In this document: positions 11,058 to 57,239 of the stretch, in pieces
Layout: each line of letters begins with the position of its first letter
Numbering within the stretch: the stretch's first letter is position 1
Notes under the pieces: model-generated
Seen by the model: only the letters and a program-made list of their open reading frames with translations
Database searches by the model: none
Told to the model about the DNA's origin: nothing
Assembly: GCA_963971425.1 (NCBI GenBank)
Contig: OZ020519.1
Coordinates: 10,742,028 to 10,806,027 of the forward strand
Direction of reading: 5' to 3'
Length of the DNA: 64,000 nt
DNA from: Bryoerythrophyllum caledonicum
Lineage: Eukaryota > Streptophyta > Bryopsida > Pottiales > Pottiaceae
Position numbers and translations under genes: made by a program

Positions 11058-11103
11058 GTTTGGCGAGCTCAAATTGAGGCGTTCCGCTGCAACACAGCCA
11101 GTT

Positions 11104-31412: not shown

Positions 31413-31430
31413 CTCCCGGCAGACGCACCA
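31413..31430 (-). promoter_or_regulatory. Primer binding site
   Basis: On the minus strand TGGTGCGTCTGCCGGGAG lies three bases inside the 5' LTR. Its complement ends in CCA, as a tRNA 3' end must. It is not the initiator-Met site (TGGTATCAGAGC) nor the Athila-type Asp site (TGGCGCCGTTGCCGGGG). I could not name the tRNA. Confidence 0.7.
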
Positions 31431-31433
31431 AAA

Positions 31434-33932: not shown

Positions 33933-34090
33933 CATGGCGGCCATCTGGGACAACTCGTAGAGGCAGAGAACCCAAAGGCTCTTGCTCTTGGGCACACGGT
34001 CAAAATTCCCTTGTTTCGTATTTGAACAAGAACCAAGACCATAAATAAGTAAAATGGGGAAGTTCCAAGAGGATGTAGGTTGTGAATAAT

Positions 34091-34543
34091 TCACACCTTG
34101 TACTCCTTGCATCGGTTTCCTGAAGTCCTTGTTGGAAAGTCCTCTCCATTTAAGGTTTGAAGTTGAACAGAATTGTTGGAGAAGACTTCCTTCACGAGGT
34201 AAGGACCTAACCATAAGGCATCAAATTTCCCTGGAAAATCCATGCGGCGCGCGTCTTGGAGTAGCACGAGCATTCCCGGTTGTAGTGACCGGACTTTGTT
34301 GCGCCTATCGAACGCAATTTTCCTGCGGCGCTGAATGGCCTCCATGTGTTGTGCACTAATACGGCGCCGCTCATCTAATTCCTCCAAGTGGCCCAACCGA
34401 TTAGAAATTGAGGCAGCGATTGGCCACCTTCCAGACACCGCAACTCGGAGAGAGGGTATTTCTAACTCGATGGGGAGAATGGCTTCCACACCATAAACTA
34501 AGGAAAATGGGGTGGCCTGGGTGGTGACCTTAAAAGTGGTCGG
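34091..34543 (-). pseudogene. Integrase C-terminus, second copy
   Basis: Appears identical to 23851-24303, including the frame break at the upstream edge. Confidence 0.75.
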
Positions 34544-37500
34544 TAAGCCCATAAAGCCGCTGGGAGTTTTGTATCCCAATCACATTTGGAATCCACGACC
34601 GTCTTGCGTAAAATATTCACCAAAGTTTGGTTAACACGTTCAGTGTGGCCATTGGTTTGAGGGTGGTAAGGGGTGGTTTTCCGGTGATTAATCCTAAACC
34701 GAGTTGTCATGGCCGCAATCACTTCATTCAAGAAATGCTTGCCACGGTCACTGATGAGGATTTTTGGACATCCAAACCGTGTGATAACTTGTTCAAACAA
34801 GAACTTAGCGGCGTGGTTGGCGTCATTGGTTCGCACGGCCTTTGCTTCGGCCCATTTGGTGAGGTACTCGGTAGCGACCACTATATGTTTCATTCCATTG
34901 GAAGAACTAGGGTGAACCTCACCGATATAATCAATTCCCCATTTCTCAAAGGGAAGCAAGGGAAGTGAAACTCTCAAAGGCAAGTTGAGCCGGAGATCAT
35001 TCCTAGCATACCTTTGGCATGCGTCACAACGTTGGGCATACTCGTGGGCATCTTGGAAAAGCGTAGGCCAATAGTAGCCTGCGCGGAGTACCTTTTGGGC
35101 CGTCAAGGCTCCAGAAAAGTGGCCACCACACGCGCTGTCGTGGCAAGCTGATAAAATCGTGGGTATTTCCGCGGCTGACACACACCGGCGAAGGAGGCCA
35201 TCTATACCACGACGATACAACTTTCCACCCACTATGGTGAAGTGACGACTATGGAGGCGGACCTTTCGCCTCTCATTTTTGGACAAGGTCTCAGGTAGGC
35301 GGTGGGTGGTAAGAAATTCCGCTACTAAGCCATACCATGCAGGAATAGATGAAACTTTAAATAAAGTCTCATCCACTAATGTCTCATCGATGGGGACCAC
35401 TCCAGGTTCTTCGGATAAGCGTGAGAGGTGGTCCGCCTGAAGGTGCATTCTCCCAGGCCTATATTCTACCGTATAATCGAATTCCTCCAACAACAAGACC
35501 CACCGGGCTAGTCGGCCGCTTAAGTCTGCTTTGTTGACCAGATACTTGATAGCCATATGGTCTACATAAAAGACCACCGGGTTCAAAAGAAGGTAGTGTC
35601 GGAACTTCTTCACTGAGAAAACCATTGCAAGACACTCCCTCTCTGTAGTGGAGTAATTTCTCTCTGCGGGGTTCAACTGTCTACTTGCAAAAGCAATTGG
35701 ATGGTCTTTGTTTTTATCTCCTACAGCTTGGCAAAGTGTACTACCTACCGCCACCGATGATGCATCGCAGAAGACATGGAAGGGTAAATCCCAGTTTGGA
35801 GGCCTCAACACTGGATACGAGCTAAGCTCGGTTTTTAAGACATCGAAGGCTTGTTGACACTCCGGAGTCCACTCAAATTTCACCTCCTTCTGCTGAAGCC
35901 TAGTAATGGGCATAGATTTTGTGGCGTAGTCATGAATGACCTCACGATACCACCCTACATGTCCAAGAGTCTTCTGAATTTCCTTGACATTCCTAGGAGG
36001 GGGCAATTCTACTATGACTCTCACCTTCTCTGGATCTGGCTCTCTACCATCCTTAGAAACCACGAAGCCAAGTAGGACTCCCTTCTCTACTGCCAAGAAG
36101 ATCTTTTCTGGGTTTAAGGCTATTCCCGTGCGTCTACAACGCTCAAAGCTCTCTTTGACACACTCAAGGTGGGAATCCTTCGAGGATTGGGTACTAAAGT
36201 CGTCAATAAAGACCGTCATAGACTTGTGTAAGAGATCGGAAAACGCGTAGGTCATTGCTCTCTGGAAGGCGGCTGGTGCATTGCACAACCCAAATGGCAT
36301 CACTAAATAAATGAAGGTTCCCCAGGGAGTAGTGAAGGCCGTCTTATGGTAATCCTCAGGTGCTATGGAAATCTGGTTGTAGCCTGAATACCCATCCATG
36401 AAGGTGTACAACTCATGACCGCCGACCTCTTCTAAAATGGTATTGATAAATGGGAGGGGGAAATGATCCTTCTGAGTGTGTTGGTTTAATTTCCTATAAT
36501 CGATACACACTCGAAGTTTTCCATTTTTCTTTTTGACCAACACCATGGGAGAGACCCAGTCAGAGATTTCCACTGGTTTGATAAATCCCGCTTGCAGAAG
36601 CTTTTCTAACTCTGCCTTCACTATTAGCTGGAGGTTGGGGTTCATTCGGCGTTCCTTCTGTCTAATGGGAATCGTGTCTGGAAGAAGGGGAATGTGATGT
36701 TGGGTCACCTCTGGGGAAATTCCCTTAAGATCCTTGTAAGACCAAGCAAAGACATCACGATACTCTAGGACTAAATTCTTATACTTGGCCATCTCTTCCT
36801 CACTTAATCCTACTCCAACCTTAATGCTACGGTTTCCTTCTCCTTCACGTGAGACATCCATTAATTTCCAATCTTGGGGGTGCACATGGGGTTGTTGAGT
36901 AGGGCCTCTGTACCAATCACTAGGAATTGGAGGATATATTGGGCCTAAACCTCCAGCTAAAATACCAGAGGACGTCCTCCTAAAATGAAGAGATGGATTG
37001 AGAGGCCCTTCGTCCACCAAGACCTCTAGCTCTTGAGCTTGTGTGCCCTCAACATCCATGCCGAATGCCTCTCCCAATTCCAAGTCATCTAATAGAGGAA
37101 CTAAGCCTTGCTCTAATTCCGACCCCACGAGGATATCTTCCATAAAGTTTACTGAAATAGCCTCGTCCGCGCTTGAGATGGGGTGTTCCTTTAACCATTC
37201 TACATACTCCTCGGTTGGGGCCCATTCATAAAGCCCTGGACCCAGACTTTTGAATGGAATTTTGTGGGCCTCTACTGGATGGACCCTATCAGCGGCTTCG
37301 TGAGGTAAAAACCTCACCTTCCTTGGGGGAACCTTTGTCAACACTTCCATTGACTCATCCTCAGAAGAGCTGTGGCATCCACGACAAAATCCGTACTTCA
37401 AAGGCTTGATATCCACCTCCGTAAGGTTATGTGGCGGTCCATAAGTAATGTGAGGCCTAAGGCCTCCCCAATCTACACGAGCATTGGCAACTCTCAACCA

Positions 37501-38190
37501 TGGACGGCCTAACAACAAGGGGTATGTTTCCTTGTTGGAGCGCATTCGAAGTACCTGGAAGGTGAGAGAATACTCTTCCCCCCCTGTGATGACCTTACAA
37601 TTACTAATTTGGCCTAAAGGCGCTTCTGCACTTTGGTTGGCCATGTTGATGATGAAAGGTGAGGGTTCCGTGATGTCTAGGCCTAATTTCTCCATGGTGG
37701 AGAGAGGCATAATGTTTAACCCACTACCACCATCTACCAATACATGGGGTACTATCTTGTCCACGATGGAAACTTCAATTGTGCATGCCCGAACCTCGGT
37801 GGTAGGTGAGGTAGACTTAACCCGGGCAGCTAGTTTAACCTTGGCCTTGGGCCGCCGTTTTACTGGGGTTCCAGTCCTGAGAGCTCTTCTCATGGGAGGA
37901 GAGACTTCTAACAATTGGGCAATAGTGATGTCGGCCTTAAGACGACCTAAATCCGACCACAAGTCATACGAGCCCGTCACCACACTTTCTGCAGTGAGAG
38001 GAGGTGGTCTAAGCTCGGGAATGGGAATTTGTGGCCCTTCCCATTGTTCACTGAGTTGAGGAGCATGGTTCCCAGGCCTAGAATTCCCTTGGGTGGACCT
38101 AGAGTTTGCCCGCTGAGTGTTTTCTATCGCCTCTCTCATGGTCTCATTTAAGTCAGAGAAATGTGGTGAATCCTCATCAGAGCTATCACT
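34498..38190 (-). pseudogene. Truncated pol of the second copy (lacks Gag)
   Basis: Appears identical to 24258-27950 of the first copy: protease, RT, RNase H and integrase remain, with the same integrase frameshift near 34540. The frame is open to the deletion junction at 38187-38191, so Gag, both zinc knuckles, the leader and the primer site are gone. The first in-frame ATG (38139) is internal. Confidence 0.85.
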
Positions 38191-38254
38191 TCCTAATGCT
38201 AACTAGTTAATCTTAATGCCCAAATGACATCGTGCGCCGGTTTTGGGGCTCACA
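38187..38254 (-). repeat. 68-bp remnant of a third LTR
   Basis: Matches the last 68 bp of the LTR (23625-23692), ending GGCTCACA. It is fused to pol through the shared word CACTT at 38187-38191. Confidence 0.9.
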
Positions 38255-38259: not shown

Positions 38260-40433
38260 CACCCGGAAATGAACTTTAAGGGACCTGACCCCCATGTTTC
38301 GGGGACCTTTTTTGCTTTTCAGGCCCTGATATGGTGAGCCTCATCGCATGTAACTGTGGGAGCCTATTAATATGTGTGGTAATAAAACTGCAGAATATTT
38401 TCCCATTGCCGCCCTTCGTTTTACCATCCCTCCCAAAATTCACCCAACGACCTAGTTACTATTCTTAAGAAATTAACGTTCCTGTTTGGTTCATTTCCTA
38501 GGTTCATGTGCTTTTTTTTCATGTGGAAAAGAGGGGCGTAGAGTACTTATCTTTCATGTGGCCAAGAGGGGTGACATTTTGAAGAACGTGCACATGCTAA
38601 TAAACCCCTTAAACTCAAGTGTACTTACAGGGTCTAAAATGTATACTTTGACCGCAATTATCTCTCAATCTGTAAGGTCAAACTTCAAAAAAAATTCACC
38701 ACATCATCTCTTATAAGAGAAGAGAAAGCACCATGTAAATGCACAGGAACATTGTAATGCTCATGGTAAATTGTAAACTAGTGATTGCATAATCGAAACT
38801 ACGGCACGAAATTCCACTTATGAAAATTGCACACTCCTCACTCCGTGTTAGTATTCTTACAGGGACATAACCTTTCCAAAAAAGTTCAAAATGGGAGAAA
38901 GAAGCAATGAACAAAGCTTAAACATAAACACAAAAATCAATTAAAATAAGAATGGAATAAATTGCATATGGAGCTCCAAATTCAAACCTGAAAACCCAAA
39001 AAGAATAATCAACTGCAAGTCTGCTCTCTAAACCCTGCAAGACAAACATAGAAGGAAACAGAGAAGAGAAATAGAGCTCTAAAATCAATGAAGTTGATGC
39101 ATATTTATTGCTGGAGGGTTAAAATCGAGGCAAGGGCGGGATAAACAAGGCGAGGGAGGTGGGAAAAATTGCAGCTGAAAACTTCAGAATACCGCCTGCG
39201 CCGGATACAATATGGGACCATGTCCGGGTTCGGGCGGATTCGGGCGCTCTGTGAGGTGGGGGTCCACCACCTGACAAGCATCGTTGGAATGCAATCTGGC
39301 CGGATGCATGTGCGCGCACCATTTGTTTGAGAATTTGATCACCCCTTTGGCTGAATAGTTTGTGTGTGGCTTTTACTCATGTTATCTGAAGAAAGTGAAG
39401 CTACGACCAGGATAACTTGGAGTTGAGATTGTATTGGAACGTATGTGTGGTTGTGCACCATGTAATTTTATGTACAGTACATACTCCTTCGTTGAGTGAG
39501 GAGATTTTTATTTCTTTTTGAAAAGTACATTTTTTGGATTGCATCAATTGCGGTTGCCCATTTCCCTATGTAGCTTCACATCCTTGCTCTAGAATGAGGG
39601 CGTGGCTTCATCTACCAGCTCCACAATGACGGCATGGTTTTACCTACCTACACCTTCTCCAGTTATTATAATAGATACAGTGAGCCCTATTTAGCTTACA
39701 GCCCAAAGAAAAAAATGAGTTCTCGAACATAGCCTTGCAACAAAGAGGTCTTATAGTAATGGATAAGGATAGAAAAGGGAGTACGCACCAAGCAAAAGGG
39801 AAAAGAGAATTGCAAATAAGTTATTATGAAGAGAGGTTTGGAAGACGCACCCTACAATCCAATGACGAGACCGTGTGAGCAGTTCGAGAGCACTTGCGGT
39901 GAGCAAAAAAATATGTTCTAAAATCAACAATTAAAAATTTTAAAATTTTATTTTCTAGAATTGGATTTTAAATTGGATTTTCAAATGCAAAAGGTCTAAA
40001 TTAGGAAAAAAATGGACCTATTGCCATGCAAAATTTTAGTAACTCATTTCCCCGTTATGATGGTTGTAAACGATCATGTGAGTCATTGGAGATTCAAAGT
40101 GAAACTATAAAAAATGGAAAACATGGGTCCTATAACCGTGGACCATGATATAAATTCCTCCTTTTTGACCACTCAAAATTATAACCTTGTGAGTCCCCAG
40201 ATTAGTCCGTTGGAAATAAATTGAGAAGGAGTTCTAAAAGTTGGAATGAATGAGACAAGAGTCAAATATACAACACATTTTTTAAGTGGCCTAATCATTG
40301 AATTTGTAGATTTATGGTTCTTGGGAGATATGCAAACATGATACGCGGAAGAGACTAAACTCAACAATTATATCACTTGGTATTATAATGACATTCCAAG
40401 TTCTAGTCCGCCTATTAAGTTTCAAGAAAGCTT
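38260..40433. other. Spacer between the retrotransposon and the MULE pseudogene
   Basis: No gene recognised. About 38598-38720 (AAACCCCTTAAACTCAAGTG ... CACATCATCTCTTATAAG) is a diverged copy of 60957-61085. A minus-strand frame at 39119-39322 has no known motif. Confidence 0.45.
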
Positions 40434-43400
40434 CTACAATAGAATTGCTCGCACTACAGGCATGAGTTTGTTGAAGCTAAGTGTGGAGGCATGGACAAAC
40501 AAGTCCTCGAGCTCATCGAGCTGACACACAACCGCATAGACAAAGTATAAATGCTTGCAATTAGTCCAAGACCGGCCGGATCGGTTGGCCTTCACCTACA
40601 TTGAAACAAAGTCCGGACATGTGCAAGCTGGAATTGAGCTGAGCGTAAGAATGTAGTGATCTATGGCGTGGGTAGTAGAGGAGTCAACCTCAAGATCGAC
40701 GATGCAGCCGAGGCTTGGGAAGGGCAACATTGTGCGCTTCCGAATTACTGCCTTCATCATAAAGGCTGAACCCCATCGTTGGAGCTGGGTGGCGATTGGC
40801 CTGCCGGAACGACGCTTGACCACTTTGGTGAAGCGCGACTACGAATGTTTGTCAACGTCCTCTGGAACTGAGTACGCAACAAGGTCAACACTATTGGCAT
40901 GGGTCGATTGGAAGTGCCGACGGGGAGACGCTTCTCGCTTCTGTGGAAGCTGGAAACCAGCGCGCTCTAGTGCGATGATCTCTGACCGCTTTAGACTGGT
41001 GCCCCTCTTAACAGTCCAAATTTGTGGGACGGTATCCGGACGAGTAAGAATCCATTTTTTGCAAGAGCCCAATACACAACGGTTGATATCGTTGGGGCAG
41101 AAATAAAACTCTTGTCGTTGGATTCTACCAGTGTGATAGTTCGTCCAGTTTCCTATGTATGTGGGACATGCAGTGGTTTTTTTCTTCTGGATAATCTTCA
41201 TTGTGCATTGCTTCTTTGAGACGGCTAGGAGAGCCCAACTCGCTCCACCAGTGCAATGTTTAGGTACTCGAGTGATATGCCATTCGGTAACGTTACAAAC
41301 GGATTCTTCTACCCCCGTAACATATGTAGGTCGATTATGCCGGGCACTAACATTGTCCATACATTCCAAACTTGAAGAATCGTTTGCGCCAATTGTTAGA
41401 TCAACATCCTCTTCCACATGTGCATCCTCATCAACCTCTTCAAGGACTTCACGAGTCCTTTGGGCCTTCGCCGACCTAGTCTCTACTCGGGGATGGGAGA
41501 AATTAATTCTCTCCGGGCGATGTGAGTCAAACTCCGATCCTCGGGGTAGATTAAGTTTGCGCTTGGTTGACCCAAAAACCTCTTCACCAGCAAAGTGTGG
41601 AGATCGTGTGAGGATGTCCGCTGAATTTTGGAAGTTTTCCATTGTTTCGGCCTGCCTTAATTTTTTTGGGATCTCTAGATTCTTGGGCTCTCCTCAATCT
41701 GAGTTTGTTCTTACTTGGACCAGTCCCTCCACGTTAACCCTTTAGAAACAAAATATAATGAGTAACCTGCATGAAGGCCCTAACGTAATCATCCAAAGTT
41801 GCCTCAAAGAGGTCACTGCCCTTGTTCCCAAACGCTTGGAGCCATTTGTTGTGCATTGCCTCCGCAAGGTTGCACCTCGACATGCTTGCCCGCTCCTCGT
41901 CCGTAAGATCCTAGATACAATTATCAATTACATAGATATCAATAAGAACAGGTTACAATATTAAAAGCAAAGGAAATGAATTAGAAAACATGGTAGTATG
42001 AGGGACTCACCATTGAATATAGCTCCACCCCATTGAATATAGCGGAAATGCCAAAATGCTAACCATTCATCCACCTTCGAGATGTCCTTATCACCAGTCG
42101 CGGCTTTTGCTGAAATCCACCACTCCCTTATAGCACGATAACGAGCTTCGGCATTGGAAATGGTAGTAGAGCCCTTGTATTGCTTGCAGAGTAGTCGGTG
42201 TTGCTCACGGAGCTCCGACTTGATGTGCTTGTCGGTGTGTTCTGTCATGGACTTAGTCCAATGGAATAGACATGTCCTCTCTTGGCCAACCATCTTCTCC
42301 GTCTTGCTTCCAGACCCGTATATAATCCTTACGGCATTCCAATTTGCCTGAGCGCTATCAGCCATGAATCCCTTAAATACTGGCTTTGAGTGTCTAGCTT
42401 CCAAAACAACACCATTGAGACCGTGCCAAAGGAGGGATTGCGCTTCTGTGTCCTCCGATTGCATGTCACAAACCGCAATAGTCATGACTTTCGAATATCC
42501 CGGATCATAAACATGACACGCCATGGTCGTCCAATTTTTCACTCGTTTAACATTGTCAAACATCATCCAAGCGTCTTGCAAATCACCGCCAGGTTGCATT
42601 CAGAGGACTAAGTCAAGGCTAGATCGAGGGCCAACCTCGGACATCTTAAACACAAATACCTTCTCGTTTCCTTGCCCCGGAAACTTGTTATCCCGAACGT
42701 AAGACCAATTACTGAGACCGGCCAGGTTCGTGATTCCATCGATTGGGCCCAAGCGGGGTAGCGCCTTTAATCCCGACACAGTGTGCCACAACTTTGGTGA
42801 CGTGAATGACTTGAATTATTCTGCAACCTCAAACAATTGATCAACGATAAGAGGCACCGCCGTCTTGCCTTCCTTCGTGATGAGAAATTCACTCAAGAAC
42901 TCCTTACTTGCCTCGAGGACAATCTTAGAATGGGTTGTACTTGGCATTCTAGAAACTTGGACATTGCAAAGCACCTGCATTCTGAGGAGCGATTCACGAC
43001 AATCTCCAGTCTTCACCGGATGATCGTGAGTCCCAAGATGGATGCACGCACGTGTCATATCCCCTGGGCCGCTTGCATAGTATAGAAGAGCCGGACAAGT
43101 GTCCACGCACATGGGAGGCTCTTGGCAAATTCCACATACTAGAGTCGACTTCTTGGGTGGACTTTCACCCACCCTAAAGGGATTTTCAGTACACCCGTCC
43201 CACTCCGTCTCGTTTATCTCGTACAACCGTTGCTCGTGGTTCAGATAATCACATGTAGAATTTGAGCATCGAAGATGCCCCGCACATGCAGAGTAGCGGA
43301 AAGTGAAGCCTGCCTATTTTTTCACATCTCCAATCGGCTCAAATTCATAAATAACATCACCATTGTAAATTGGAGGGAGGTACCTTATTTGGTGGATGGG

Positions 43401-44003
43401 GACCGAATTGAAATCGAGACGTTTGAGGGCATTCCGTGCACCTGGTCTCGTAATTAGTCTTCTCAGATTGTGGATGATGCTCCCAAGGCCCTTAGGAGTA
43501 TTGGGGCGAGGCGGTTTCAAAGCAAAAGTATGTTGGACAAAGCCTCCAACACTTCTCTGCGGGTCGACCTCGGTTGGTTGTGGTGTCCGTAATGGCGTGA
43601 ATGCGGAAAGGTCTGCTAGAGGGGGGTCGTCGTCGTCGTCGCTCAACAATACGATAGTCTCCGTTCCAGGCTCAATCTTCACAACAATCTTTGAATTTGT
43701 TGTTGATTTGTCTGGCATATCAATCTTGGTGGTTGCCGCCATCTGTTCAAATTTCAGACCTATGACCCTATACCTACCAGGCCAAAGGTTTCAAGAACGG
43801 TTGTCGCCTTCGACCGTGAAGGGCATAAGTATGGACTCGACCAGAACTCCTTCCTCATCCAAGACCTCTTGCTCAATATGAATCAACATAATATCTAACT
43901 CATAACGGACTCGCAGTACAGACGCAAGGACATTGCATGACCCATTCGCAAGAGGGGGAATAGTGAGAGGAACACCGACGCCGTTGAATCGAAGAGAAGC
44001 CAT
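40434..44003 (-). pseudogene. MULE-like transposase with SWIM zinc finger, six in-frame stops
   Basis: The frame runs from an ATG at 44003 to a donor at about 42011, then exons 41910-41767 and 41651-40434. In exon one, the reading frame continues unshifted across stops at 43791 (TGA), 43314 (TAG), 42816 (TAA) and 42600 (TGA); exon three has stops at 40839 and 40596 (both TAG). Visible parts: Cys/His clusters (CAGHLRCSNSTC, CGICQEPPMC, CIHLGTHDHPV) resembling the N-terminal zinc region of MULE transposases; GFMADSAQANWNAVR, a likely catalytic Asp region; CNLAEAMHNKW; and a C-terminal SWIM-type finger (CTC ... CKH) at about 40540-40620. The join of exons one and two is one base out of phase, so a further lesion or a missed exon exists; an 18-bp duplication sits at that edge. 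No terminal repeats were found. Confidence 0.65.
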
Positions 44004-46473
44004 GATGTAGTAATGCAGCGAGCAAGAGAAGACAATGACAAGTTGGGGACGTCAAAATACATTAAACCACCAGTCATGCATCAATTCTAAGACGGTCTGC
44101 GGTGTCAAAATGGTATATAGATATAGACGTCTCATCCATAGATATATATGATAGCTACTTGTATCCGCAGTCTTAGGAATATAATGAAGCAGAAAAATCA
44201 TGGGCTGATAAAGTTAAAATCCCCAACGTATTGATAAGGTTGCCAGCATTGCCATTTCTTTTCTTTCCCATTTTTAGTTGTTTGTGGGAAGGGCAGCCGA
44301 CGCCGGCAGTCCAATATTGCAGTGTATATTGTATAATATTTCGGAGACAGAGGCGCCACAATTGTGAGTTTATTATCTTAATTTTGGTTTATTGATATAG
44401 AAAGTTGTTGATGAGAAGGGTTGCCATTGCCGGCAGTACTATATTATGGTGGAAATTGACCGATCCAAATTTAAACCATGCTCAATAAACTGGTGAAATA
44501 TTATGAAGTTGGTATGAAAAAACCAAAATAGTAAATGATGTTAATGGAAATTTGCATATTTATACAACGGACAAGATGGGCATTTGCAATAATTGACATG
44601 TGCATGATGGACAACATGCAAAGTGAGGAAGATGACGTTGGGGGTGTATTACAATATAATAGATTTGGCGGTTAGTGTATTTCAAGAAGAAACAATTAAC
44701 GACAAGTCATTGTTGTGGGTACCTTGAATTATAATTGTGCTTAGGTAGGTATAATAGTTAAATAATATATATGTAAAATATTTAATGTTTGAAAATAGAA
44801 TACAAAATAAATGTGCAACTCTGTCAATGAAAGTGAATATATGAAAAATACCATATAGTGTTAATGATGACGGTGGATATCTTGCTGGTCAAGTGGGATT
44901 GCAAATTTGAAATCTCTAAATAATTGAACCTTTAGCTGCTTATCCTCAAGTTAGAATTGAAGTAGATCTATGTAGATTATGACCCATCGTTTCTTGCGGA
45001 TGTAGTTGCAAAGATAAAGCAACAGAAGGCTTACCAAGTTGATCCCTTTTAATGAACCGTGCTTACTAAGTTGATTCAGTTGAGAGGTGATTATTTGCAG
45101 ATGCAAAGAGAAGTTGTCACTCAAACATCTATTCATGGGGTTGAGAGAAAGAAGAGAAGGAAGGCGGACTTCGTTTCTCAAGTGTGAAACAATTGAGGAA
45201 GTCAAGGATGGGAAGACGGAAGGTCCAGATTCTTGAGGATGACTTAAGAGATACCCATTGTGTCTTATCATTTGGGATTGGAGAGCGTGATAGAAGTGGG
45301 CGTTTGCATACAATTGGAGAGGGTAGTGCTACGCCATCGGCACGTAATGAAGACATCATTGTGGACAAGGACAAGGACCAGGACCAGGACCAGGACAAGG
45401 AGAAGGACAATATTGAGGTGAGCAAACATCTAAATGAATATCTGGTATGCTCTCAACAAATTTGTATAATGCTTAACTATATTGTAATGAAACATTAGCT
45501 GCTTCTGAACCTACGACATAAAAATTTGTCTTGTTTCTAGGGTATTGATTTAAAAGTTATATACGGATGGTGTCATGGCAATATAAACATTATATGTAAA
45601 GGTTCATTCATTTGTTTGTCACTTGTCCATTTCTCCCTCTCCATCTTCATTAATCCCACATTCTCCCACAACCACTGTCTTATTATCTTTCAATTCATTT
45701 TTGAAGAGTTGTGTTGGCATAATCGGTATTCAAGGTTATCGGCTTATAGAACTATATGCCAAGTGTTGCAATACTTAATATTTTAAAAGTGCAATCTCAT
45801 TTTAGCAATACAGAGGGTCTAAATCCATTACCATCTTGTTAAGCATGATGATAGTTCCTTATACACCAATTTTTAGAGGTAGTGGACAAGTGTAGCATAT
45901 TCAAAACAACTGTGCAAGGAGTGGAGGTTCAAAATTTGCTAGATTTTTTGTGAACTTAAAATGTTTTAGATTGATAATCCAAATGGTCAAAAAGTGGTTT
46001 ACACCACATATTGTTGTGGATAAAATAGAAAGTGAACAAAATAAATATATCTAGTTTTTATGTGGAAATGAAGAGGCTATTTTGTTACCTTGCCCAACAA
46101 TGAGTGAAAATATGTGAAAATGTGACTTGGGTTGGTATGCTATTTTTCACTAAAGACAAGAATTTTTTTTTAAATATGGAGGGAAACAATATTACTTGCA
46201 AGTATTGAAAATTTCACATTCAATAAAGTGACCTAGAAAAAGTTTTTTGGACTTGCCCGAGGTGTCTGCTCTCTGCTTTTGAAATTCCATGTGTCCTTAA
46301 TTTTTTCATGAAATGTACAATTCAGGAAAATGATTGGTTTCCCACTAAGGTAGAAGTTTCCTGGAATCTCATCATGTTGCAACCATGTCGTCCATCCACT
46401 GTCTATCTCCATATCTTCTCCTAACTCACTGTCCCTAACTCTTTCACCTTCCCACGCTGAGTATTACAGAGGA
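44004..46473. other. Spacer with repeats
   Basis: No supported gene. A short hexamer array (GGACCA/GGACAA, about eight units) lies at 45363-45410 inside a weak plus-strand frame. An inverted copy of the dispersed AT-rich repeat occupies about 45826-46290. Confidence 0.45.
45826..46290 (-). repeat. Dispersed AT-rich repeat, inverted partial copy C
   Basis: Its reverse complement follows the middle of copy B (47400-47890): shared words include GGTCTAAATC, CACCAATTTTTAGAGGTAG, GTAGCATATTCAAAACAA and TTGCCCGAGGTG. Confidence 0.65.
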
Positions 46474-46569
46474 TGGAGTTTCAGGAGAATCAACCAGTGA
46501 TCGAGAGCTTATCGGAGGAGGTTGCCTTGCCTGAAAGAGTGGTCGATACAACTACCTCATCTCCAGGTG
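46474..46569 (+). other. Possible isolated coding exon
   Basis: An ATG follows TATTACAGAGG, and the frame (MEFQENQPVIESLSEEVALP, then acidic/Ser-rich) reaches a good donor (CCAG-GTGAGAT at 46567). It could be a first exon of the plus-strand methyltransferase-like pseudogene 4 kb downstream, or chance. No domain. Confidence 0.2.
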
Positions 46570-47219
46570 AGATTTGCTGGGTTGATCTGCGATTCTATTG
46601 GTGAGATCTGCTTTAGTTATTGATGTTGTTATCGGAGGGTTTATCGTTGGAGCCTTGCGTTAAATGATGCGGGAAGATGATGTGGATGTTTTTCTTGTCT
46701 TTGAATGCGTGTATTGGAAGTCGGCAGCCGGTGCCGGCACCCTAGTTTGGTTATCATGTTTTCGGTTACATGATCAAACCCTAGTTGGCGACACTGTAGA
46801 AGCCGAAACCTTAGAAGTCGACACCCTTCTTCTTGATCCTGCAATCCTTGACTCCTTATCCGCATGCAACATCTAATGCCAGTGCATGTGAAGGCCTGTC
46901 AGTGTCGGCACGAAGTGAGAGGGCAAGTTGATGGTGAGGGCGGGAGGATGACGGTGGAGGTTTACTCGCCCGACCTTGTGTCTTTGGCTCGGGGGCGCAG
47001 TTGTTCGGGTTCGCGACGTTGTCGATGAAATGAACTTTATGTTCATATCGATGAGATGATCGTTGTCGACTCGCGATGTGAGCCGGCTCTTTGCTTGCCG
47101 TGTTGCATGCCCCCATTCTGGAAGTCATCGATGAACTCTGAAGTCATCGATTATATTTCTGTTTGATTCAGGTTCGTGGAGGTGTGCCGGTGCCGACACC
47201 TTTGTTGGTAACTAAGGTT

Positions 47220-48167
47220 TAACCCCTAAAAGACCAAGTGTCCAAATTTGGCTTTTGAAAAATCGGTCAGGTTCCTATGGTGTCAATTTCCAACATTCCA
47301 CTTTGAAAATTTTACTATAGAAAGACATTACCAAGAGCTCAGTGGGAAAACAATTTTTTCCTAAATTGGACATTTGATGAAAAAGTTATAGGGTTTTGAA
47401 TTTGAAATGGGGAGGGCGGGCACCTCGGGCACCTCCAAAAACTTTTGATAGGACACTCTATTGAAAGTGATATTTTTAGTACTCGCAAGTAATATTATTT
47501 CCCTTCATGTTGTCAAAAAAAAGTTCTTGTCTTTAGTGAAAAATAGCATACCAACCCAAGTCAAACATTTTCACACATTGTCACTCATTGTCGGGCAAGG
47601 TACCAAAAAACTTCTTCTTTTCCACATAAAACCTAGAGATCTTCATATTTTTCACTTTTCATTTTTTCCACAACAATATGTAATGTAAACCTTCTTATTG
47701 ACCATTCGGATTATCAATCGAAAACATATTAAGTTCAAAAAAAATTAAAGTGTGAATTAACAAATTTCGAGCCTCTACTCCTTGCACACTTGTTTTGAAT
47801 ATGCTACACCCTGTCTCTACCTCTAAAAATTGGTGTGTAAGGAGCTAACATCATGCTTAACAAGATGGTAATAGATTTAGACCTTGTGTAGTGAAAATTT
47901 TTGACACCAAGTGAAGTCAAAGTCTGCTGATCCACTAAACGCTGGGAAGAAAATGAACCATTTGCTTGACTTCAAACACTATAATCTTTTAATCCGTGCG
48001 GTCAAAGTTTATGAAATTTTGTACATGTATTACTTAATAAGCCTTTATTGAGATCCTACGGTCAGAACTAAAAATCAAAGTTTTTGTTACCTTCTTTATT
48101 CATTGCACTAGAATCCATTAATTTTGAAGTGTTTTTGGTGTAAAACTATCTTGGTACCTTAGGGGTT
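47220..48167 (+). repeat. Dispersed AT-rich repeat, copy B with intact ends
   Basis: Bounded by TTAACCCCTAA (47219-47229) and TTAGGGGTTAA (48159-48169), an 11-bp perfect inverted repeat. AAGGTT abuts both ends (47214-47219 and 48168-48173) and may be a target duplication. About 950 bp, AT-rich, non-coding; probably a non-autonomous DNA element. Confidence 0.6.
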
Positions 48168-49832
48168 AAGGTTGGATGAGTTTGTACCCTAGTAGAGAAA
48201 CCGGCTAACTTCTTCCTCGATCCACATGCGACGGCTGCCTCGCGAAGTGGCACCCCAACTCAAAATTGAATGCACTAAATGTACACGCACTTCATTGAGA
48301 ATCATCAGGTTCCAAAACTGGTAGGGCACATCGCCATTTGGTCGTTTTGTTGGACATCATTGTTGAGTTCCAGCAGTTTGACTGCCGTTTTGCCTGGGGC
48401 AATTATGGACGTCATCGATGATGCCGACATCCATGTACCATTATAATGGACGTCAGTGATGAACGTCCAGCCAATATTTTCTTTGATTTGTGTCTGATTT
48501 AGGTACTTGCTGGTGCATGTGAAGGCCTGCCAGTGCCGGCACCCTTGCTTGACACTATGGTTTTTGATTTAATGAGTTTGTACCCAAGTACGGAAGCTGG
48601 CACCCTTCTTCTTTGATTCATATGCGTCGTCTATAGCCCGCAATTTTTTCGGCCCAGAGAAGCTTGTCAAGGCCTGCCGGTGCTGGCACCCTAGCAAAGT
48701 GGCACCCCAATTGCCCGCACTGTGCAACGAAGTGTCGGCACGTCTAAAGTGCATCATTTCATCTCCGGTTGATGGAACCATGTTGATTAGTCATCTAAAT
48801 CTTCATATGATGGAGTCCGATCTCGAACGAGTGCCGGTGAATGGGGAGGCCTGCCGGTGTCGGCATCTCTTCGATGTGTCAGAATATTTTCAAACAATAT
48901 GGTGGACTTGATCGTTGGTTGTCAGCTCCGACCTGCTGGTGCCGGCACCTTAGTGAGGCTTGCCGGTGCCGGCACCCCAGCAAAGTCCCACCGCCCCTGC
49001 TCGCATAGTGAATCAAGTTCCGCCTGGTTGGCTCCTCGATGTCCGCCATCAGTGGATGTCTGAACTAATGGTATGGTGGTGATGGCAATATTGATGATGG
49101 CGATGGTATTAACTATGGTGGTGATGGCGCTGGTATGGTGGTGATGCCTGAACTATGGTGGTGATGCGTGAACTATGGTAGTGATGTCTGAACTTGAAGT
49201 CATCAATGAACTTGGAGCCAAATATTTTTTATATGTGTCCTTCAGGTTCTTGAGTTTCACGTTCCAGGTTCCTTAAGATCCATGAGATTATTTAAGTGTG
49301 TCTTTGAGTTCCTGGTTTCTTCAGGCTCTTGAGTTCTAGGTTCTAGGTTCCAGGTTTCAGGATTTCGCTTGATTGGACTCGCTTGATTGGACTCACTTTG
49401 CATGTTGCTTGCCGTGATGATTGAAGTCATGTGATGAAGTTATGACGCCGTCGTCGAATATTACTTATTGATTGAGTTTCGTGGAGGCCAACCGGTGCCG
49501 GCACCGGCACCCTTGTTGGAAACCTGGATTATATTTGATTGCACTCGCGATGAGAGGCGGCACTTTGCATGCCATGGTGCATGCCGTGATGATTGAAGTC
49601 ATGCGATGAAGTTATGATGTTGTCGTTGAATATTTTTTTTAGATTCAGTTTCGTGGATGCCTGTCTAGTTTTATTTTGGATTAGTGGATATCACATCAAT
49701 GGGCAATAGTGGGCGATCTCGAACGAGTGCCGGTGTCTGGGGAGGCCTGCCGATGCCGGCATCTCTTCAATGTACTAGAATTATTTCTTACAATATGGTG
49801 GATTTGATTGTTGGTTGTCAGCTCCGAGCATG

Positions 49833-50110
49833 GTGATCCCCTGAACTGCTGGTGATGGTGGTGGTGCATGAGTCGATGTCGATGCTGATTCCCTAAACTC
49901 TTGGTGAAGGTGGTGATGCATGAGTCGATGGATATCCTGATCCCCTGAAATGATGGTGAAAATGGTGGTCCATGAGCGGATGGAGAGCTGATCCCCTGAA
50001 CTGCTCGTGAAAGTGGTGGTGCATATGTCGATGGAGAGCTAATCCCCTGAACTCCTGGTGATGGTTGTGGTGCATGAGTCGATGGCGTTGTTGATCCTCT
50101 GAACTGATTA
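49833..50110. repeat. 51/52-bp minisatellite, five units
   Basis: Units start at 49833, 49885, 49937, 49988 and 50039, with a partial sixth at 50090. Each contains CTGATCCCCTGAACTG, then GGTGGTGCATGAGTCGATG. Because 51 is a multiple of three, part of the array is open on the minus strand and gives a His-rich 17-residue repeat; this is probably incidental. Confidence 0.75.
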
Positions 50111-50713
50111 TCTGGTGGCTAGGAGATGCAGTTCTTCAGGTTCGTGACGTTTTTGTGGTTTCGCAATCCTATGGATTCGCGGCGTTTAGTAAATCTCCGC
50201 ATAGCCTACCCTTTTAAACATTTTGGGACTCGTTATTTTTGTCTCGGAAGCTTTATGGACGGTTCTAACGTGCACTAACAGGGACCACATTATGAGAACT
50301 GTCACTTGGCGTGGATTTCCACTTGTCTATAAAGCTATCATCACATATGTTGGGACTGGTTGGGTGGCTACCTTGTCAACAGGATTGTTGCCATGTTAAT
50401 GCGGTGAATGCGTCGGTTCAAAATCGAACCGTTGGTTGATGGATCCATGTTGATAAATATTTATGAAATATTTTATGATGGAATTCGATCTCAAACCACT
50501 GCCGGTGCCGGCACCTCTTTGATGTGCAAGAATTTTTGAGTTGATACTTGACAAGGATGGCAATATGTGTGCAATGTGAGGCCTAGAGAGGGCCGAGAGT
50601 GAAAAAACAGGGCCTAGGAAGGCAACCCTCCAATCAAAGTCAAATGAGCATGAATGGATTGTTGGTTACAATGCTCAAAATTTTAATCGTTTCTTCTAAT
50701 TATATTTGTGTAG

Positions 50714-53700
50714 TGATTGATGAAGATGACAACCCTATGGACGTTCAAACAAGTGTTGAGGATATTATTTCTGCAGACGAGTTGGACAAAAAAATGCATC
50801 TTTTTGAGTAATGGATATATGGATGGCAATGGCGTGTTTTATGTTGCCTTAGAAGATCATGAAGGTAAGACTGTCGATGTGACAAATATTTAATGAAATA
50901 AGAGATACCTGGAACCCTCATTGGGTTGCAACAAATGCTGCTTCTGAGGATCTCCTTCTTCAAGATGAAGTTCTGAGGTGTTTCTCCGGGAAGATGTTTC
51001 ATGTATGGGATGGGAATCACCGTCTTTAGGCGTGGATGCGGCATGCCAATAATCAACCGTCATCACTCTAACGATCCAACATGGCATTATTCAGTGGAAT
51101 CAATCATTCTTGATGTTAAAGGATGTCTTGGGTCACTTCTGACTGCTCTACACCAAGTAAATTGATATGTTGGCCATACTCATTTCTAAATTCCTTTCAT
51201 GCAGATTGAATTTTAAACTGTCAATCAGTAACTTCTAATAATTATATTGATTCATTCATATATAGCAGGAGGAACCAAAAATGCCATGTGATTACCAATT
51301 TGGTTCACAATTTTTTTTGAATTCAGGGTATAGCGGGGCAACCTTTATCTTATTTCACAAATTTGGTTAGTAAGGAGGATTTTCTTGCTTGTGAGGCTAA
51401 GCAAAAGAGTAAGAATCGAACATGGTTTTCACTCACTACAAAAGCTCTTAATGGAGTGTTGTATCAGATATTTTCTTCTCATATCCATTTGTTTGTCAAT
51501 TTTTCCTTCAACAATTGAATTCTTCATGTTTGAATCCATAGCTACTTTTATAATTTAACCTTTCTTATATTAAATTCATTTTACAGCAAGAGCTGGGTGC
51601 AGCTACTGCCACTGCTGAAAGAAGATTCCATGAGAAGTATCCAGACCCCAAAGAATGGACTTTTCTCAAAGCTCATGAATTTAAATCTAAAGCGGTATTG
51701 AAGATGAAGGTTCAATGCACATCGGAGTTAAAGAAGCAACTACCCATAGCTAATCCTAAATACATCCCTGAATTTCTTCTACAAGTGAAGAAAAATTATG
51801 AAAATAGTGAGGAACCAGAGATGGCACAAGAAAAATTATGGATGCTTGCTACCTCAACTCTGGATTCTCACATGAAGGTGAAATGGCTTGAGAGATGGAA
51901 TTCTTTTTCTACTCTTCGTGCGATTTTGAAGTTTCCAAAACCTTGATTTGAGAATGCAGAATTCCCCGAATGGCTTCGCCAGGCTACTTGGCGGACTTAG
52001 GTTTGTTTTTCACAAAAATGCATCAATATTTCTTTTAAATGATTTTTCTTCCTTTCAATACATATGCTAACAACTATTTTATATCATTTCAGTTGGCTAT
52101 TGAATCGGAGAAACTCTTTGATGGTGCCATTGCGGACATGGGAGTTACTATTGACTACCATCCAGATGGAAAAGATCAGATTTCAACCATTTCAAAGTAT
52201 ATTGAGCAGATAAAAATTCAGCTATGGAATTTTGGTTTACATCGTGACTTCAATGAAGAGTAAGGTGTTCACAAGAACAATATCTTTGATAAACAATATG
52301 GATTTAAGCCCGCCATGCAACGTTCGTTGTATCGATATTTCAATTATATTCTTTTCCCTACAAAGGCAATTTCTAGATCTCCAGTTTTTTTGCCAACTAC
52401 TTGGATGTTGACAGCAATGATTATATGTTAACAAAAGGTATCATGAAATCTTGGAATTCTTCTCATTGGGAGTCATGTGGCTGGTATTTAGACTACCCTG
52501 ATAGAAGACCTCCTAGTTTTGACATTGAGTTTCGTGATAGTATTGAGCCTGCATTGAAAGGTACTCAAGTTGTCTACACGGAGGTAGTAGAAAATCCTCT
52601 TGCTAAGAAAACTAGGGGGTCTAAGAAAAATATCCCAAAGGATTCAAATGATATAGCAAATATCAATGCATTGGAACCCAAGACAAATTTTCTTTCATCC
52701 TCAAATGTAGTAGTGAATCCTCTACTGCCATCAGAAACTATTGCTCAAAAGCCGTCTTCAACTTCAACTCTTGCATCTCAACATTTGAAGGCAAAGAAAT
52801 CTACAATTCTTCACAAAACTACACTTTTGCAGCTAAACATCCTTCTACATTTGTTTTTTTGGAACAAACGTCCATTCCGGATATCTTGGAGTTGGGCTAT
52901 CACATCTAGCCCTTCTAAATTGCACGAATTTGTAAAGAAGGTATACATCCTTTCTTTCATTACAATCGATTTATTTGAATTTTCACATTTTTGTAATGTA
53001 TCACTAGTTTTTTAATTGTCATTTTATTAGGTGAAGGGTAATATTGTAGGCCCTCCTCGTTGTGATACTTGTCCTTGTAGTGGTTTGGATTTAATCATTG
53101 ATGATCTCTCAGAAGGTCTTCATGTTCCAAAAATTTCCCTTACACCTTTACACATTCCCTCTTGGAATGAATATGTTTAGTCTCACGTTGAGGCTCTATT
53201 TGAATTTATAGAAGCATTTCTTCATATTGATGGAGATATTTTGAATTTTCTCTCTAAATCTCAAGCAATCAAATATGATGTGAAGACATATGCTTAAACT
53301 TATGAGTTCAAGATTTTGAAGGACTGGTGGGGTATCAAAGAGCTACGACTTACTTCTCCAAATAATTCAGGGCTCACTGTAAGTGACTAATTAATAATTA
53401 CAACTACTTTATGTTTTGCATTTATTTTATATTTTTACATTTGGTCGCATGTATTTTATTTGTAGTCTCGCCAATTTTGCATTCTTTTTCATACATGTGA
53501 AAAGAATGCATCCAATATCTTCATATTTCATGTAGATTGTGAGTTGTCCAACCTTCATATTAATGTGAAAGAAGATGATATACTATTCAAGTATATCTCA
53601 ACTGACTCTTAAAAGTAGAACGGAACCGTACCATGGAAGGGAGCCCGACAGAAGGACCAAGTACTACACTAAATTCTTATTGAAGCCTTCACCAAGCTAG

Positions 53701-54308
53701 GATCAGTGATTCTAGATGCTATTGCTGGCACATGTGATGCTCCTATTAACTTTTTTTATTTTATAAATGTTTCGGCATTAAACATTTCAAAATATTATTT
53801 TATGTAGTTTTAAGAGCTTCTATTCGAGCAACAAAGCATTTGCATCGGCATGTTATTGGTTTTGGAGCCGATCCTTTGATTTTTGAGGCTATTATTTCTC
53901 GTCTTCGAGATGAACCACCACTTTTGTCAATTCTTTTTAGAGCTATTGATATCTTTGATGAAGATGATGTTCCAATTCATCGAGTTGCAAAGCGCAATCG
54001 TTTAAGTAAGTGAGCTGTTTTTTTCCAATTGTTTGTTGTTTTTATACACAAATGATTTTTCTATACTTTAATTGTATTTGACTTTTTATGGCAGATTGAT
54101 GGCCTTTGTCCACTCTCCCCCGGATCTTTATGCCCTTCCTACATATGCCGACAGTAATGCCCAAGCTTTTATAGCAACACATTCTTCACCTTTAACTCGA
54201 AAGAAACGACGTTTCAACCCTCACGTTTATAAGTATCTGGATATGGAGGTTGAAGAAGGTAGTGAGGACTCTTCTACTAAGGCACACAGTTGTAGTTCCA
54301 TTGATTGA
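50714..54308 (+). pseudogene. Decayed multi-exon gene with ParB-like and amino-methyltransferase-like regions
   Basis: Recognisable exons start at 50714 (VIDEDDNPMDVQ), 51327, 51587, 52093, 53031, 53466, 53808 and about 54095. Near 51000 the text FHVWDGNHRL occurs, recalling the DGxHR core of ParB/Srx-type domains. The C-terminal part reads VPWKGARQKDQ, then ILIEAFTKLGSVILDAIAGT and, after an in-phase intron, LRASIRATKHLHRHVIGFGAD and FEAII. That matches the order of the C-terminal SAM-binding half of N4/N6 amino-methyltransferases (LI..., VLDxxAGT, A....R..IGxxxD). Lesions: stops at 51944, 52261, 53178, 53295 and several near 53610-53680; a frameshift in the T7 run near 52390; another near 50810; and a lost donor at 51468 (CAG-ATATTT). 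No DPPY motif is clear. Function in the living gene is unknown. Confidence 0.45.
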
Positions 54309-57239
54309 TGCATTGGAGGTTTTCAACCTTCGATATGTCTCTAGTATTTATTTTGTACTTGGTTCATTTCTTTTACACAGTAATGAAATTCCCAAGGCAA
54401 ATAAACATAGCTATTTTTAGGTTTGTATCATCAAACACAAAATAATTTTATATAGAATATAATTTGTTCATCTTATTTTATTGTTGGTGTTTAATATTGT
54501 AGCATGTGCATTTGGAAAATTTTACATATGTCAGTACTAGTACTGCGGTTATGAATGACTTTTAACTTTAAACAATAATAAATATTCACTTTGTTTTTCG
54601 TGACATTGGTTAAATTATGAAATTTTAAGATTTCATGATGAACATATCAATGTTTGTTTTATTTACATACCACGATCATAGGACAGTATACACAATTAGC
54701 ATTATTTATGAATTTTCTATAATCTCCATATCATCCCACGGTTATAGGATTGTTCTAAAGCCAATTGTCCTAATTCTCAAAATCCCACGGCTTTAGTCCT
54801 CTCTTGCAATAAAAAAATCTCTCAGATTTTTTTGCTTACCGCTCACCGCTCACGCCGGCTGCTCTCTGACAGCTCACGTAATCAAGTTTTCCCCCTACAA
54901 TCAACTCTTGAACATATTAAAAAAGAGCCAAATTGAATAAGAGGTTGCATTCATAAGAGTACAAGACCAAGTCTTATGGCAGAGTCAATGAAGTTGATGA
55001 CATATTAAAGATGCGGAGCAACCACACTACTATTACAACACTTGTGTGATAGAAGAACATGTGGGAGGATTTGCTCGAAGAAGAACACCATTACAACCAC
55101 CAAAAAAAAATGTCAAACATGAGCTTGTACGTTTAAAGCCAATAATAATGCTTGTAGTTGAAAGAGAGCGAGAACTAGATACAACAACTAGACCGCATTG
55201 AATTGTAGTGCAAGATTATAGATGAAGATGAAAATTTATGTACAAGGTTGGTGGCACATATTATAACAAAACTAACCTCATTTGTCGTATAATTGATGTT
55301 CATGAGAAATAATGTCTTATGAATGATAACACATGATAACCTAGTTTTGGACCTCCACCAATGAGTCTATCTATAACAAAAAGGAGAGGGTAAGTGATGA
55401 GAAAACAAGGACAACAACATCTATGCTAGTAAGGATATGCCTTAAGGTGATAAAAGGGTGAGTGAAAGATCTAAAAGGCATACGAGTATGGAATATTGCA
55501 GTCTCACATGATTGCATAGTCTAACATGATTGCAGGGCTTGTGAAGCGCACAAGCTTCATCAAGAACGGCTCATTCTTGAGAGCGAAACTGCCCTATAAC
55601 TAGATGTCGAGAACCTCCGTAGGTTGTATCAAAGCCCCCAATGTGCGTAGGAAACACCGTCTCTACTAAATCAAATTGCGTACGAGCATCTGATCCGATC
55701 TATTTGATTCTTCAATAAAAGCAATAGAATCTTGAGCCTAGTTGGTCTCTAAAACTTAAGTAGGAAGTAGTTTGAAATAGGAAATAATTTTCGATGAAAG
55801 AGAGTCATGTTGTATAAGCTCTAAATTTTAGCTTCTTTTATTTTCTTTGAGTTGATGATAAATGAACTATGAGCTTTTTGTGGCTGTTTTGAATATTAAA
55901 GTTAAGAGAACCAAATTCACGTATACGGATTTACGGCTCGCCCCCCTGCCGGCATGTACATCGGCAGAGGAGGCTGATCTTGCTACTGTTACTGCCGCCA
56001 TACCGCGGCGCACATCGTCTTGGAGTCGCCATTTGAGGGCATGGAAATCAGCACTACTCCACGCATCTCGCCCTGCAAGTTACTAATCCTCTCGTAGTAC
56101 GGATTCTGCCGCCCCGCCATCGCTGCTGCATTACTTTCTTGCCTCCAAAACCTCCAAAACCTCCTAAACCTCAATGCATGGGCTAATTTCACAAAACTAA
56201 ACCTCCAACGCCTCCAGAACCTCCATGCATTAGGAAAATTTGCAAGAATAAACCTCTAGCACTCTGAAAATGAAATCTCTACCCCCTTTTAACGCCAATT
56301 CTATTGTAGAAAAGAAGCCACCACAAAATTTTCCGGCCTTCTTAGGCAGTGTTAAAGAAACACGACCTAAAATACCAAACCTCCTTCAATGCCTAAACTC
56401 ATACCTCACTGTGAAGGCTTCTGAAGCGATGTTAAGAAATACAATCGAAATCTTCAACGCCGAAACTCTAAGCGGCAAACAAGATGAAGCGAATTCCTTT
56501 CTTAAACAGTCTGCGAGAGATATTTTCTCTGATAAGCAACACAATCAAAGCAGAGAGAAGAAAGATATATTCAATCCGCCTGTAGACAGACATGGTTGGA
56601 GAGCTCAAATTTTGTGTCTACACGCGCGGCGGAATGAATTGCCGACAGACTGTGTAAGAAATGGTCACATTGTGTTCGAAAACTCAGAAAACTACATGAC
56701 AAAGTCGAAAAGTTCCCTCCATAGCCAGGCTTCCTTGTAGAATTCAACAGACAGACAAGCTTGGCTGAGCATGAGTGCAGTCGTAGAGTAGAGTTGCAAT
56801 CGGAAGGACGGGTTTAGGAGAAGCAACTGTAGTAACTACATGTAACAAAGAGAAGCACTTGACTGGAGCATGAGACCATAGCAAAGGGGACAGTCTTGGC
56901 GGTTGCCACGTCATCGCCTCTCTCCTCAATCGAAGCCATTGACGCCCGCAAAAAACTTCCCTTCCCGTCACCGCTCATCATCGCAAACGTGCCTGACCAA
57001 ACGAACGCTACATGTGCAATCGCCTCATGTGCAATCATCAAAACCTACTCACTTCACATGCCTCAAATCGACCTTCTTGTCAAGCATTGTTAGGGGCTTG
57101 TATGTTACGAAAAACAAACACAATAGAGCCAAGAAAGGTGCAAATAATCACGTGCACAACAGACGCAACATAGCCACGCAAAAAATAGGTTATATATTAA
57201 GAAGATAATAAGTGCCGCAAAAAGAAAAATACAAAGAAA
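54309..57239. other. Spacer with one unassigned open frame
   Basis: Mostly AT-rich. A Lys/Glu-rich stretch at 55530-55690 interrupted by stops may be a decayed coding fragment. Short AACCTCC(A) repeats occur at 56148-56235. Confidence 0.4.
56270..56740 (+). CDS. Hypothetical 156-residue open frame
   Basis: ATG-started and uninterrupted, in an AT-rich stretch where so long a frame is unusual. The product is hydrophilic with many Asn, Lys and Ser, no signal peptide and no membrane segment. No domain recognised and no clear promoter or introns. It could be a chance frame or an exon of a lost gene. Confidence 0.2.
   Translation: MKSLPPFNANSIVEKKPPQNFPAFLGSVKETRPKIPNLLQCLNSYLTVKASEAMLRNTIEIFNAETLSGKQDEANSFLKQSARDIFSDKQHNQSREKKDIFNPPVDRHGWRAQILCLHARRNELPTDCVRNGHIVFENSENYMTKSKSSLHSQASL

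Follow-up and report, generated by a model that had tools for sequence, protein, structure and literature searches.

A decayed ParB-like and amino-methyltransferase-like gene of Bryoerythrophyllum caledonicum as the accessory gene of a probably Mutator-like DNA transposon

The window analyzed here is a stretch of 64,000 nucleotides from Bryoerythrophyllum caledonicum (C7:10742028-10806027, within the 437,360,962-base, 894-contig genome searched in this work), and its plus strand carries, at positions 50714-54308, a decayed multi-exon gene with a DGNHR motif near the start and an amino-methyltransferase-like end. There is good support for its identity as a transposon accessory gene. Taken jointly, the evidence is best explained by the decay of one of the two genes of a DNA transposon, probably Mutator-like and with a divergent transposase, and it is quite likely that the encoded protein would bind its own element and aid either its movement or its escape from silencing. 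A preliminary description had presented the locus as a plant pseudogene combining a ParB-like motif with an amino-methyltransferase-like C-terminus; the motifs, exon borders and lesions that it reported are present on re-examination, and what it missed is the transposon membership of the gene and the degenerate methyltransferase catalytic motif in the copies examined.

The transposon copy in the window is decayed as a whole and spans 15,034 bp (39860-54893), as delimited by terminal repeats, a 9-bp flanking duplication and a two-gene layout as in the element of locus L022 (loci are numbered with L and contigs with C). The target-site duplications CCTACAATC at 39851-39859 and 54894-54902 are identical, and random point pairs in the window, with a wobble of ±3, gave a 9-bp duplication in 139 of 200,000 draws. 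The left terminal inverted repeat (TIR) region, found by blastn-short on the plus strand (39860-39917, extent approximate), is degraded, and the right one, on the minus strand (54826-54893, extent approximate), holds CCGCTCA heptamers with an exact 15-mer match at 54839-54853, where 0.03 matches were expected. Perfect 9-bp target duplications were found in all three elements with both ends located, namely the window copy, the L022 element (C1:9566155-9578377, 12,223 bp, CCTGTGAGG on both flanks) and the L011 element (6,727 bp, flanked by CAAAACTGA), which has lost most of its transposase. The TIR scores of L022 and L011 (70-bp ends) are 104 and 84, respectively, against a random maximum of 40 in 2,000 60-bp pairs. 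In relatives, the 3′ limit of the element is sharp, about 0.8 kb beyond the stop codon, and ends in CCGCTCA-type heptamers plus the motif AAGATAGCA(A/T)TC; array and end motif were recognized by pattern in 9/19 loci (L011, L014, L015, L017, L018, L021, L023, L024 and L028), and subterminal heptamer arrays are present at both ends of the elements. Over 8,378 bp, L020 matches L022 at 99.7% identity, and the homology of the two stops at the same terminal base; the idea of a segmental duplication was rejected because the homology stops exactly at the terminal motif. Genome-wide, the end-motif pattern gave 602 matches and the reversed control none. Among the 77 ends listed on C1, up to 54.2 Mb, ten outward-facing pairs lie less than 25 kb apart and no pair stands in the opposite order, and seven of the ten pairs surround a DGNHR site. 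Repeats of other kinds also occur near the gene: a 52-bp tandem repeat of 5.4 copies (49830-50106) lies within the element just 5′ of the pseudogene, and upstream of L017, on the sense strand about -3560 to -900 from DGNHR, repeated blastn matches mark repeats of ~520 bp, reminiscent of VANDAL tandem repeats.

The second gene of the element is a decayed, divergent transposase gene on the minus strand (40443-43994), which was detected by tblastn with the transposase pieces of L109/L022 (E = 3.6e-22, 3.2e-161, 3.8e-72 and 1.6e-17) and is preserved in five pieces: 43994-43329, 43307-42024, 41907-41677, 41648-40911 and 40688-40443. Here, L109 carries the transposase adjoining L022 and L110 that of the L017 element, which represents another subfamily with a 713-amino-acid version of the transposase (51% identity over 438 amino acids). 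In two elements, L022/L109 and L017/L110, both regions of the accessory protein (the ParB part by motif only) lie in one gene antisense to the transposase. In the flanks examined, the N-terminal part of the transposase was found upstream of L012, L014, L015, L020, L022, L025 and L028, and it is rearranged in L013. A divergent DGNHR site lies less than 9 kb from 7/12 transposase matches in the part of C1 inspected, where random placement gave a mean of 0.09 and a maximum of 3 in 5,000 draws. Against a 351-amino-acid query from the L022 element, the 116 scored matches (from 2,675 first-look candidates) include 12 copies at 100% identity and 14 at ≥99%, the query's own copy included, and since these 99-100% identical copies are spread over ten contigs, the element moved recently. 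It has been reported that target duplications in the Mutator superfamily measure 8-11 bp (PMC6446971), and the element is probably Mutator-like because of its 9-bp target duplications, together with a weak SWIM signal, SWIM fingers being frequent in Mutator-type transposases.

The DGNHR codon pattern was matched 935 times in the window's own genome and the reversed pattern 41 times. The context was translated for 100 listed sites, all on C1 (20 with ~10 kb, 40 with 1.3 kb and 40 with 314 bases), and by eye 94 of them belong to the same family, the non-members being L019, L063, L069, L073, L080 and L104; it is these two results that place the motif and its gene beyond chance. A strict scripted rule requiring W before DGNHR accepted 43 of the first 60 sites, and 15 of the 17 rejects were restored by eye because in more divergent members that position is taken by a different residue or a stop. 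Extrapolation from the one contig puts the number of copies with the DGNHR motif near 880 genome-wide, a figure that misses copies using other codons. The family is divergent, with identity to L022 in the N-terminal exon falling as low as 29%. In addition, six dispersed C1 copies (L049, L075, L077, L078, L083 and L084) form a WDGNHRFSAWW subfamily with short translated contexts that are almost identical, which suggests another recently mobile lineage.

Gene models were obtained for 19 loci with a spliced protein-to-DNA aligner written for this work, with L022 as the reference. The intact relative that the preliminary description had supposed does exist: L022, the reference model itself, and L017 (reference residues 59-1054) contain no stop or frameshift, and therefore both regions belong to one gene, contrary to a division of the two regions between different genes. 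The intron phases 0,0,0,0,0,1,2 are common to L012, L014, L020, L022, L025 and the window copy, and the remaining modelled loci depart from them through lesions, deletions or subfamily; in L017, exon 4 through exon 6 are fused into a single exon of 545 amino acids. Outside this genome, viral contigs gave no match to the WDGNHR pattern, and none of the 19 stretches that they matched with the profile pattern is a relative. The profile pattern matched seven stretches in a prokaryote contig collection, and one of them, L117, is a relative: an apparently intact member on a 4.7-kb contig in a bin labelled as a Synechococcales (cyanobacterial) metagenome, with five introns modelled at corresponding places. 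A cyanobacterial origin of L117 was rejected because of these introns, and L117 is most likely stray eukaryotic DNA, a probable contamination of that public genome.

Aligned with L022, the window gene covers residues 87-1055 and contains 10 stops and 7 frameshifts. Its expected exon borders carry GT/AG candidates, with the exception of the exon-2 donor, which is seemingly lost. The first exon (50714-51156), homologous to L022:2800-3399, contains the DGNHR (ParB-like) domain and bears frameshifts, stops and a deletion; FHVWDGNHRL ends at base 51026 and is directly followed by an in-frame stop (51027-51029), and the N-terminal domain is shorter than that of L022 by ~50 residues. The extra 5′ exon of some relatives (MKRRK..LYFSD) was not found in the window by tblastn (E 0.01). 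Exon 2 (51327-51467, acceptor at 51327) encodes 47 amino acids with 66% identity to L020/L022, and exon 3 (51587-52000), placed by border candidates, is 47-60% identical to nine subfamily-A copies. Exon 4 (52093-52940), which contains a variable linker, was placed by border candidates and spliced alignment to L022. The first half of the methyltransferase fold lies in exon 5 (53031-53378), whose 348 nucleotides equal the length in L022 and L012, which is aligned by hhalign to phage methyltransferases and which reads DLSE at the catalytic position (~53103-53114). Exon 6 (53466-53733) encodes PWKGARQK and motif I (VILDAIAGT, ~53706-53732), exon 7 (53808-54009; border candidates and spliced alignment) encodes the SAM-strand-like RHVIGFGAD within the A....R..IGFGAD pattern (SAM, S-adenosylmethionine), and exon 8 (54095-54308), a C-terminal tail, was placed by border candidates and comparison with relatives.

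The C-terminus is supported as an N4/N6 amino-methyltransferase fold with a degenerate catalytic motif, as judged by profile and alignment searches. For the window pieces, the matches are weak but agree with each other: Pfam N6_N4_Mtase E = 0.13, NCBIfam CcrM E = 0.0077, PHROG 3008 DNA methyltransferase E = 0.002 (the Pfam and PHROG matches marking exon 6) and a phage methylase at E = 0.006 by tblastn; the sole match of the C-terminal piece in a PDB sequence search was a Cas9 chain (E = 0.19). Among relatives, PF01555 (N6_N4_Mtase), the profile that the preliminary description had pointed to, scored above its 26.7-bit cut-off in three of five typed pieces (L015 28.8, L017 28.8 and L026 29.1; the L015 and L026 pieces each contain one X), with L022 at 23.0 bits falling short. 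L026 matched the enzyme of Aeromonas phage LPM4 (tblastn E = 4e-5 over 87% of the query), and the amino-methyltransferase of Cronobacter phage CR3 was matched at E 2e-3. By hhalign, 14 family rows, the window included, were aligned with five phage enzymes at a probability of 96.8 and E = 3e-10 over 204 collinear columns, compared with E = 0.026 for the best of 50 column shuffles and 0.088 for the reversed profile. The motif order is that of N6_N4_Mtase, with the catalytic motif first and then motif I and the SAM strand, and motif I with the next strand (D..[AT]STG.S..AC....H....E.D) is largely retained in the family. The catalytic consensus of amino-methyltransferases is [DNS]-x-P-[YFW], and the five phage enzymes have D-[LP]-P-[YF]-G at this site. 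The family differs from these phage enzymes, with which its domain is otherwise collinear: the site is D-[IVM]-P-[DE] in 9/14 rows and DLKD, DVPK, DVLE, EFPD and DLSE (the window) in the others, so that the catalytic aromatic is missing in 14/14 rows of the hhalign alignment, and in L117 the site is DVPED.

The label ParB-like for the DGNHR domain applies at the level of the motif. A DGxHR-type core marks ParB/Srx, and a DG(H/N)HR motif is common to DUF1015 and some ParB/Srx relatives. DGNHR is invariant in the 24-row N-terminal alignment (A2), whose rows were selected by that motif. The window's N-terminal piece matched nothing in the Pfam, NCBIfam or PHROG libraries, and the 24 exon-1 sequences matched 12 families at E ≤ 5, PF02195 being absent from them. 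The closest candidates were DUF1015 (best E 0.0025, 3/24, over the DGNHR stretch) and a ParB-like PHROG (E 0.19, 1/24). As a control, a phage N15 protein annotated as ParB-like also misses PF02195 (E ≤ 1), and the missing match therefore says little. The matches of N-terminal exons to DUF1015 (0.0025, possibly related), NCBIfam sat3 (0.0032) and an OB-fold model (0.01) were taken as chance, as was ribosomal eL24, the sole PDB profile match of the N-terminal exon (E = 0.0018, 51 positions). Thus, of the ParB assignment first proposed for FHVWDGNHRL, the DGxHR-type core motif stands and a significant match to PF02195 or another ParB profile is absent in the 24 exons.

Selection on the gene was estimated as the ratio of nonsynonymous (dN) to synonymous (dS) divergence by the Nei-Gojobori method, on codons at equal model positions in 25 pairs. 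The whole-gene dN/dS is 0.10-0.23 in the 20 pairs with usable dS; saturation affects the five pairs that include L023. For the methyltransferase region, the ratio ranges over 0.10-0.34 and is highest where the deleted copy L011 is one of the pair. For the N-terminal region, it ranges over 0.03-0.44 and is highest where one of the pair is the rearranged L013, and many pairs are saturated. The value of 0.67 for L020 and L022 rests on 0.4% divergence, too few differences to judge, and dN/dS between subfamilies is unusable as synonymous sites are saturated. The low ratios indicate that element lineages keep the protein, including the fold without its catalytic aromatic.

A transposon protein of this kind is already known. 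In PMC12477816, the accessory protein of Ectocarpus Sola1-1_Ec32 is described as having 1104 amino acids with ParB-like and N4/N6 methyltransferase domains, encoded on the strand opposite to the transposase of a large DNA transposon, and such proteins are proposed to modify their own element; ParB-methyltransferases from transposons of green and red algae (Iyer 2011; Petroll 2025, Bostrychia) are cited there as similar. Set beside this description, the family resembles it in combining both domains in one protein and in the position of the gene opposite the transposase. It differs in its carrier, which is Sola1 in Ectocarpus and an element with 9-bp duplications here, and in that modification of the own element was suggested there, while the catalytic aromatic is missing in all 14 rows here. 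Thus, an intron-bearing ParB-methyltransferase is indeed unusual, as had been remarked at the outset, but a eukaryotic transposon protein so built has already been published. VANC of Arabidopsis VANDAL may serve by analogy as the nearest working model for the family protein. VANDAL belongs to the Mutator superfamily (PMC6446971), and PMC5735166 describes how VANC attaches to short sequence motifs, tandemly repeated in the element that encodes it, and brings about a loss of methylation. The likeness lies in the accessory gene beside the transposase and, for a probably Mutator-like carrier, in the superfamily of the element; unlike the present protein, VANC is a DUF1985/DUF287 protein without a ParB or methyltransferase fold, and DUF1985/DUF287 had no Pfam match in the family pieces scanned. 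Other captures are the bdelloid 4mC (N4-methylcytosine) enzyme (PMC8885841) and retrotransposons bearing DNA methyltransferases (PMC5890265).

By this analogy, the accessory protein would coat its own element and help it to move or to escape host silencing. The DGNHR domain, if ParB/Srx-like, would bind the element, most likely at the CCGCTCA heptamer arrays of its ends; the C-terminal fold would bind SAM and DNA and, with the catalytic aromatic lost, may no longer methylate or may methylate with changed chemistry. Several observations weigh against this explanation. Five of the 12 transposase matches on C1 have no nearby DGNHR site, 3/10 end pairs enclose none, and an exact end motif in the right orientation lies less than 8 kb 3′ of only 15 of the 94 DGNHR sites (wrong orientation at one), with five right and no wrong orientations on the 5′ side; the absence of the exact motif near most copies would be expected if these copies are old. 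The TIR of the window copy is weak, with a score of 34 (60-bp ends) equalled by 11 of 2,000 random pairs, so that the main grounds for the window ends are the duplication, the heptamers (54839-54853) and the homologous layout. The 435- and 318-amino-acid transposase pieces had no Pfam match at E ≤ 1, and the C-terminal piece matched SWIM at E = 0.017 with 15.1 bits, below the 19.6 cut-off. No significant ParB model was found for the 24 N-terminal exons in Pfam, NCBIfam and PHROGs, and unrelated models score equally well or better on some of them. The L012 piece had no N6_N4_Mtase match at E ≤ 10, and the exon 4-6 translation of L017 without exon 7 had none at E ≤ 1, which makes the match dependent on the final SAM strand. 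In addition, dS exceeds 1 in several of the 20 usable pairs.

In its most specific form, the proposal is a tentative one and rather doubtful: a methyltransferase-fold protein whose SAM- and DNA-binding shape is under selection and whose catalytic aromatic is lost would now act as a sequence-specific shield on its own terminal heptamer arrays, in a recently moved transposon, which would make it a second, structurally unrelated invention of the VANC type against silencing. An active DNA amino-methyltransferase marking its own element with 4mC or 6mA (N6-methyladenine), as proposed for the Ectocarpus Sola1 protein, would fit the collinearity of the domain with phage enzymes, the mostly retained SAM-site residues and the low dN/dS of the methyltransferase region; this is nevertheless unlikely, as position 4 of D-x-P-[YF] is D, E or K in 14/14 rows and E in L117. 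The protein might instead serve transposition itself, in end pairing or target choice, and not act against silencing. The subterminal heptamer arrays at both ends are natural candidate binding sites for such a role, and the L011 element retains part of the gene with most of its transposase gone, but the gene of L011 is itself broken (four stops and a large gap) and a methyltransferase-like domain is unnecessary for that task, which leaves this role possible but questionable.

The transposon membership itself has been weighed against two readings. A cellular multigene family lying by accident near unrelated transposons would be large and divergent with conserved introns, as this one is, and many copies have no exact end motif or scored transposase nearby; yet the gene lies inside terminal repeats and target duplications in 3/3 elements, which contradicts the idea for elements with both ends located, and the two 99.7% identical copies lie in different flanks and both stop at the same terminal base, so that such a family is highly improbable. 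A reading in the frame of the preliminary description, a plain host pseudogene of a bacterial-type ParB-methyltransferase gained by gene transfer, agrees with the bacterial/phage-like character of the methyltransferase half and is an insufficient account of hundreds of copies, eukaryotic-type introns and the transposon context; hardly any credence is given to it.

Beyond the element, the window contains two Ty3-type retrotransposon copies (22000-38202) in the same orientation, 10,240 bp apart, with long near-identical open reading frames in common; in the first copy, the frame at 24261-29912 on the minus strand contains Pfam gag, protease, reverse transcriptase, RNase H and integrase domains. 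An open reading frame with a SufE domain (Pfam E = 2.3e-38) lies at 11053-11676, and its N-terminal extension looks like a plastid transit peptide, judging by its residues. On inspection, this gene and the introns read as those of a plant-like host. The minus strand at 14346-15200 is open and encodes an RNA recognition motif (Pfam RRM_1 E = 3.6e-9).

In the literature, as far as searches reached, no ParB-methyltransferase accessory protein was found in a Mutator-like element or, at hundreds of copies, in a plant-type genome. Within that range, three things are new, namely a Mutator-like element as carrier, a plant-type genome in which the copies number in the hundreds and an active site that is degenerate while under purifying selection, and the family is a little-studied kind of transposon helper protein. 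The near-identical copies make its function testable, with a defined element, candidate heptamer binding sites and a degenerate active site. If the protein does protect its element from silencing without methylating it, this would be a case of convergent evolution of anti-silencing, in which a methyltransferase fold would act as a DNA reader.

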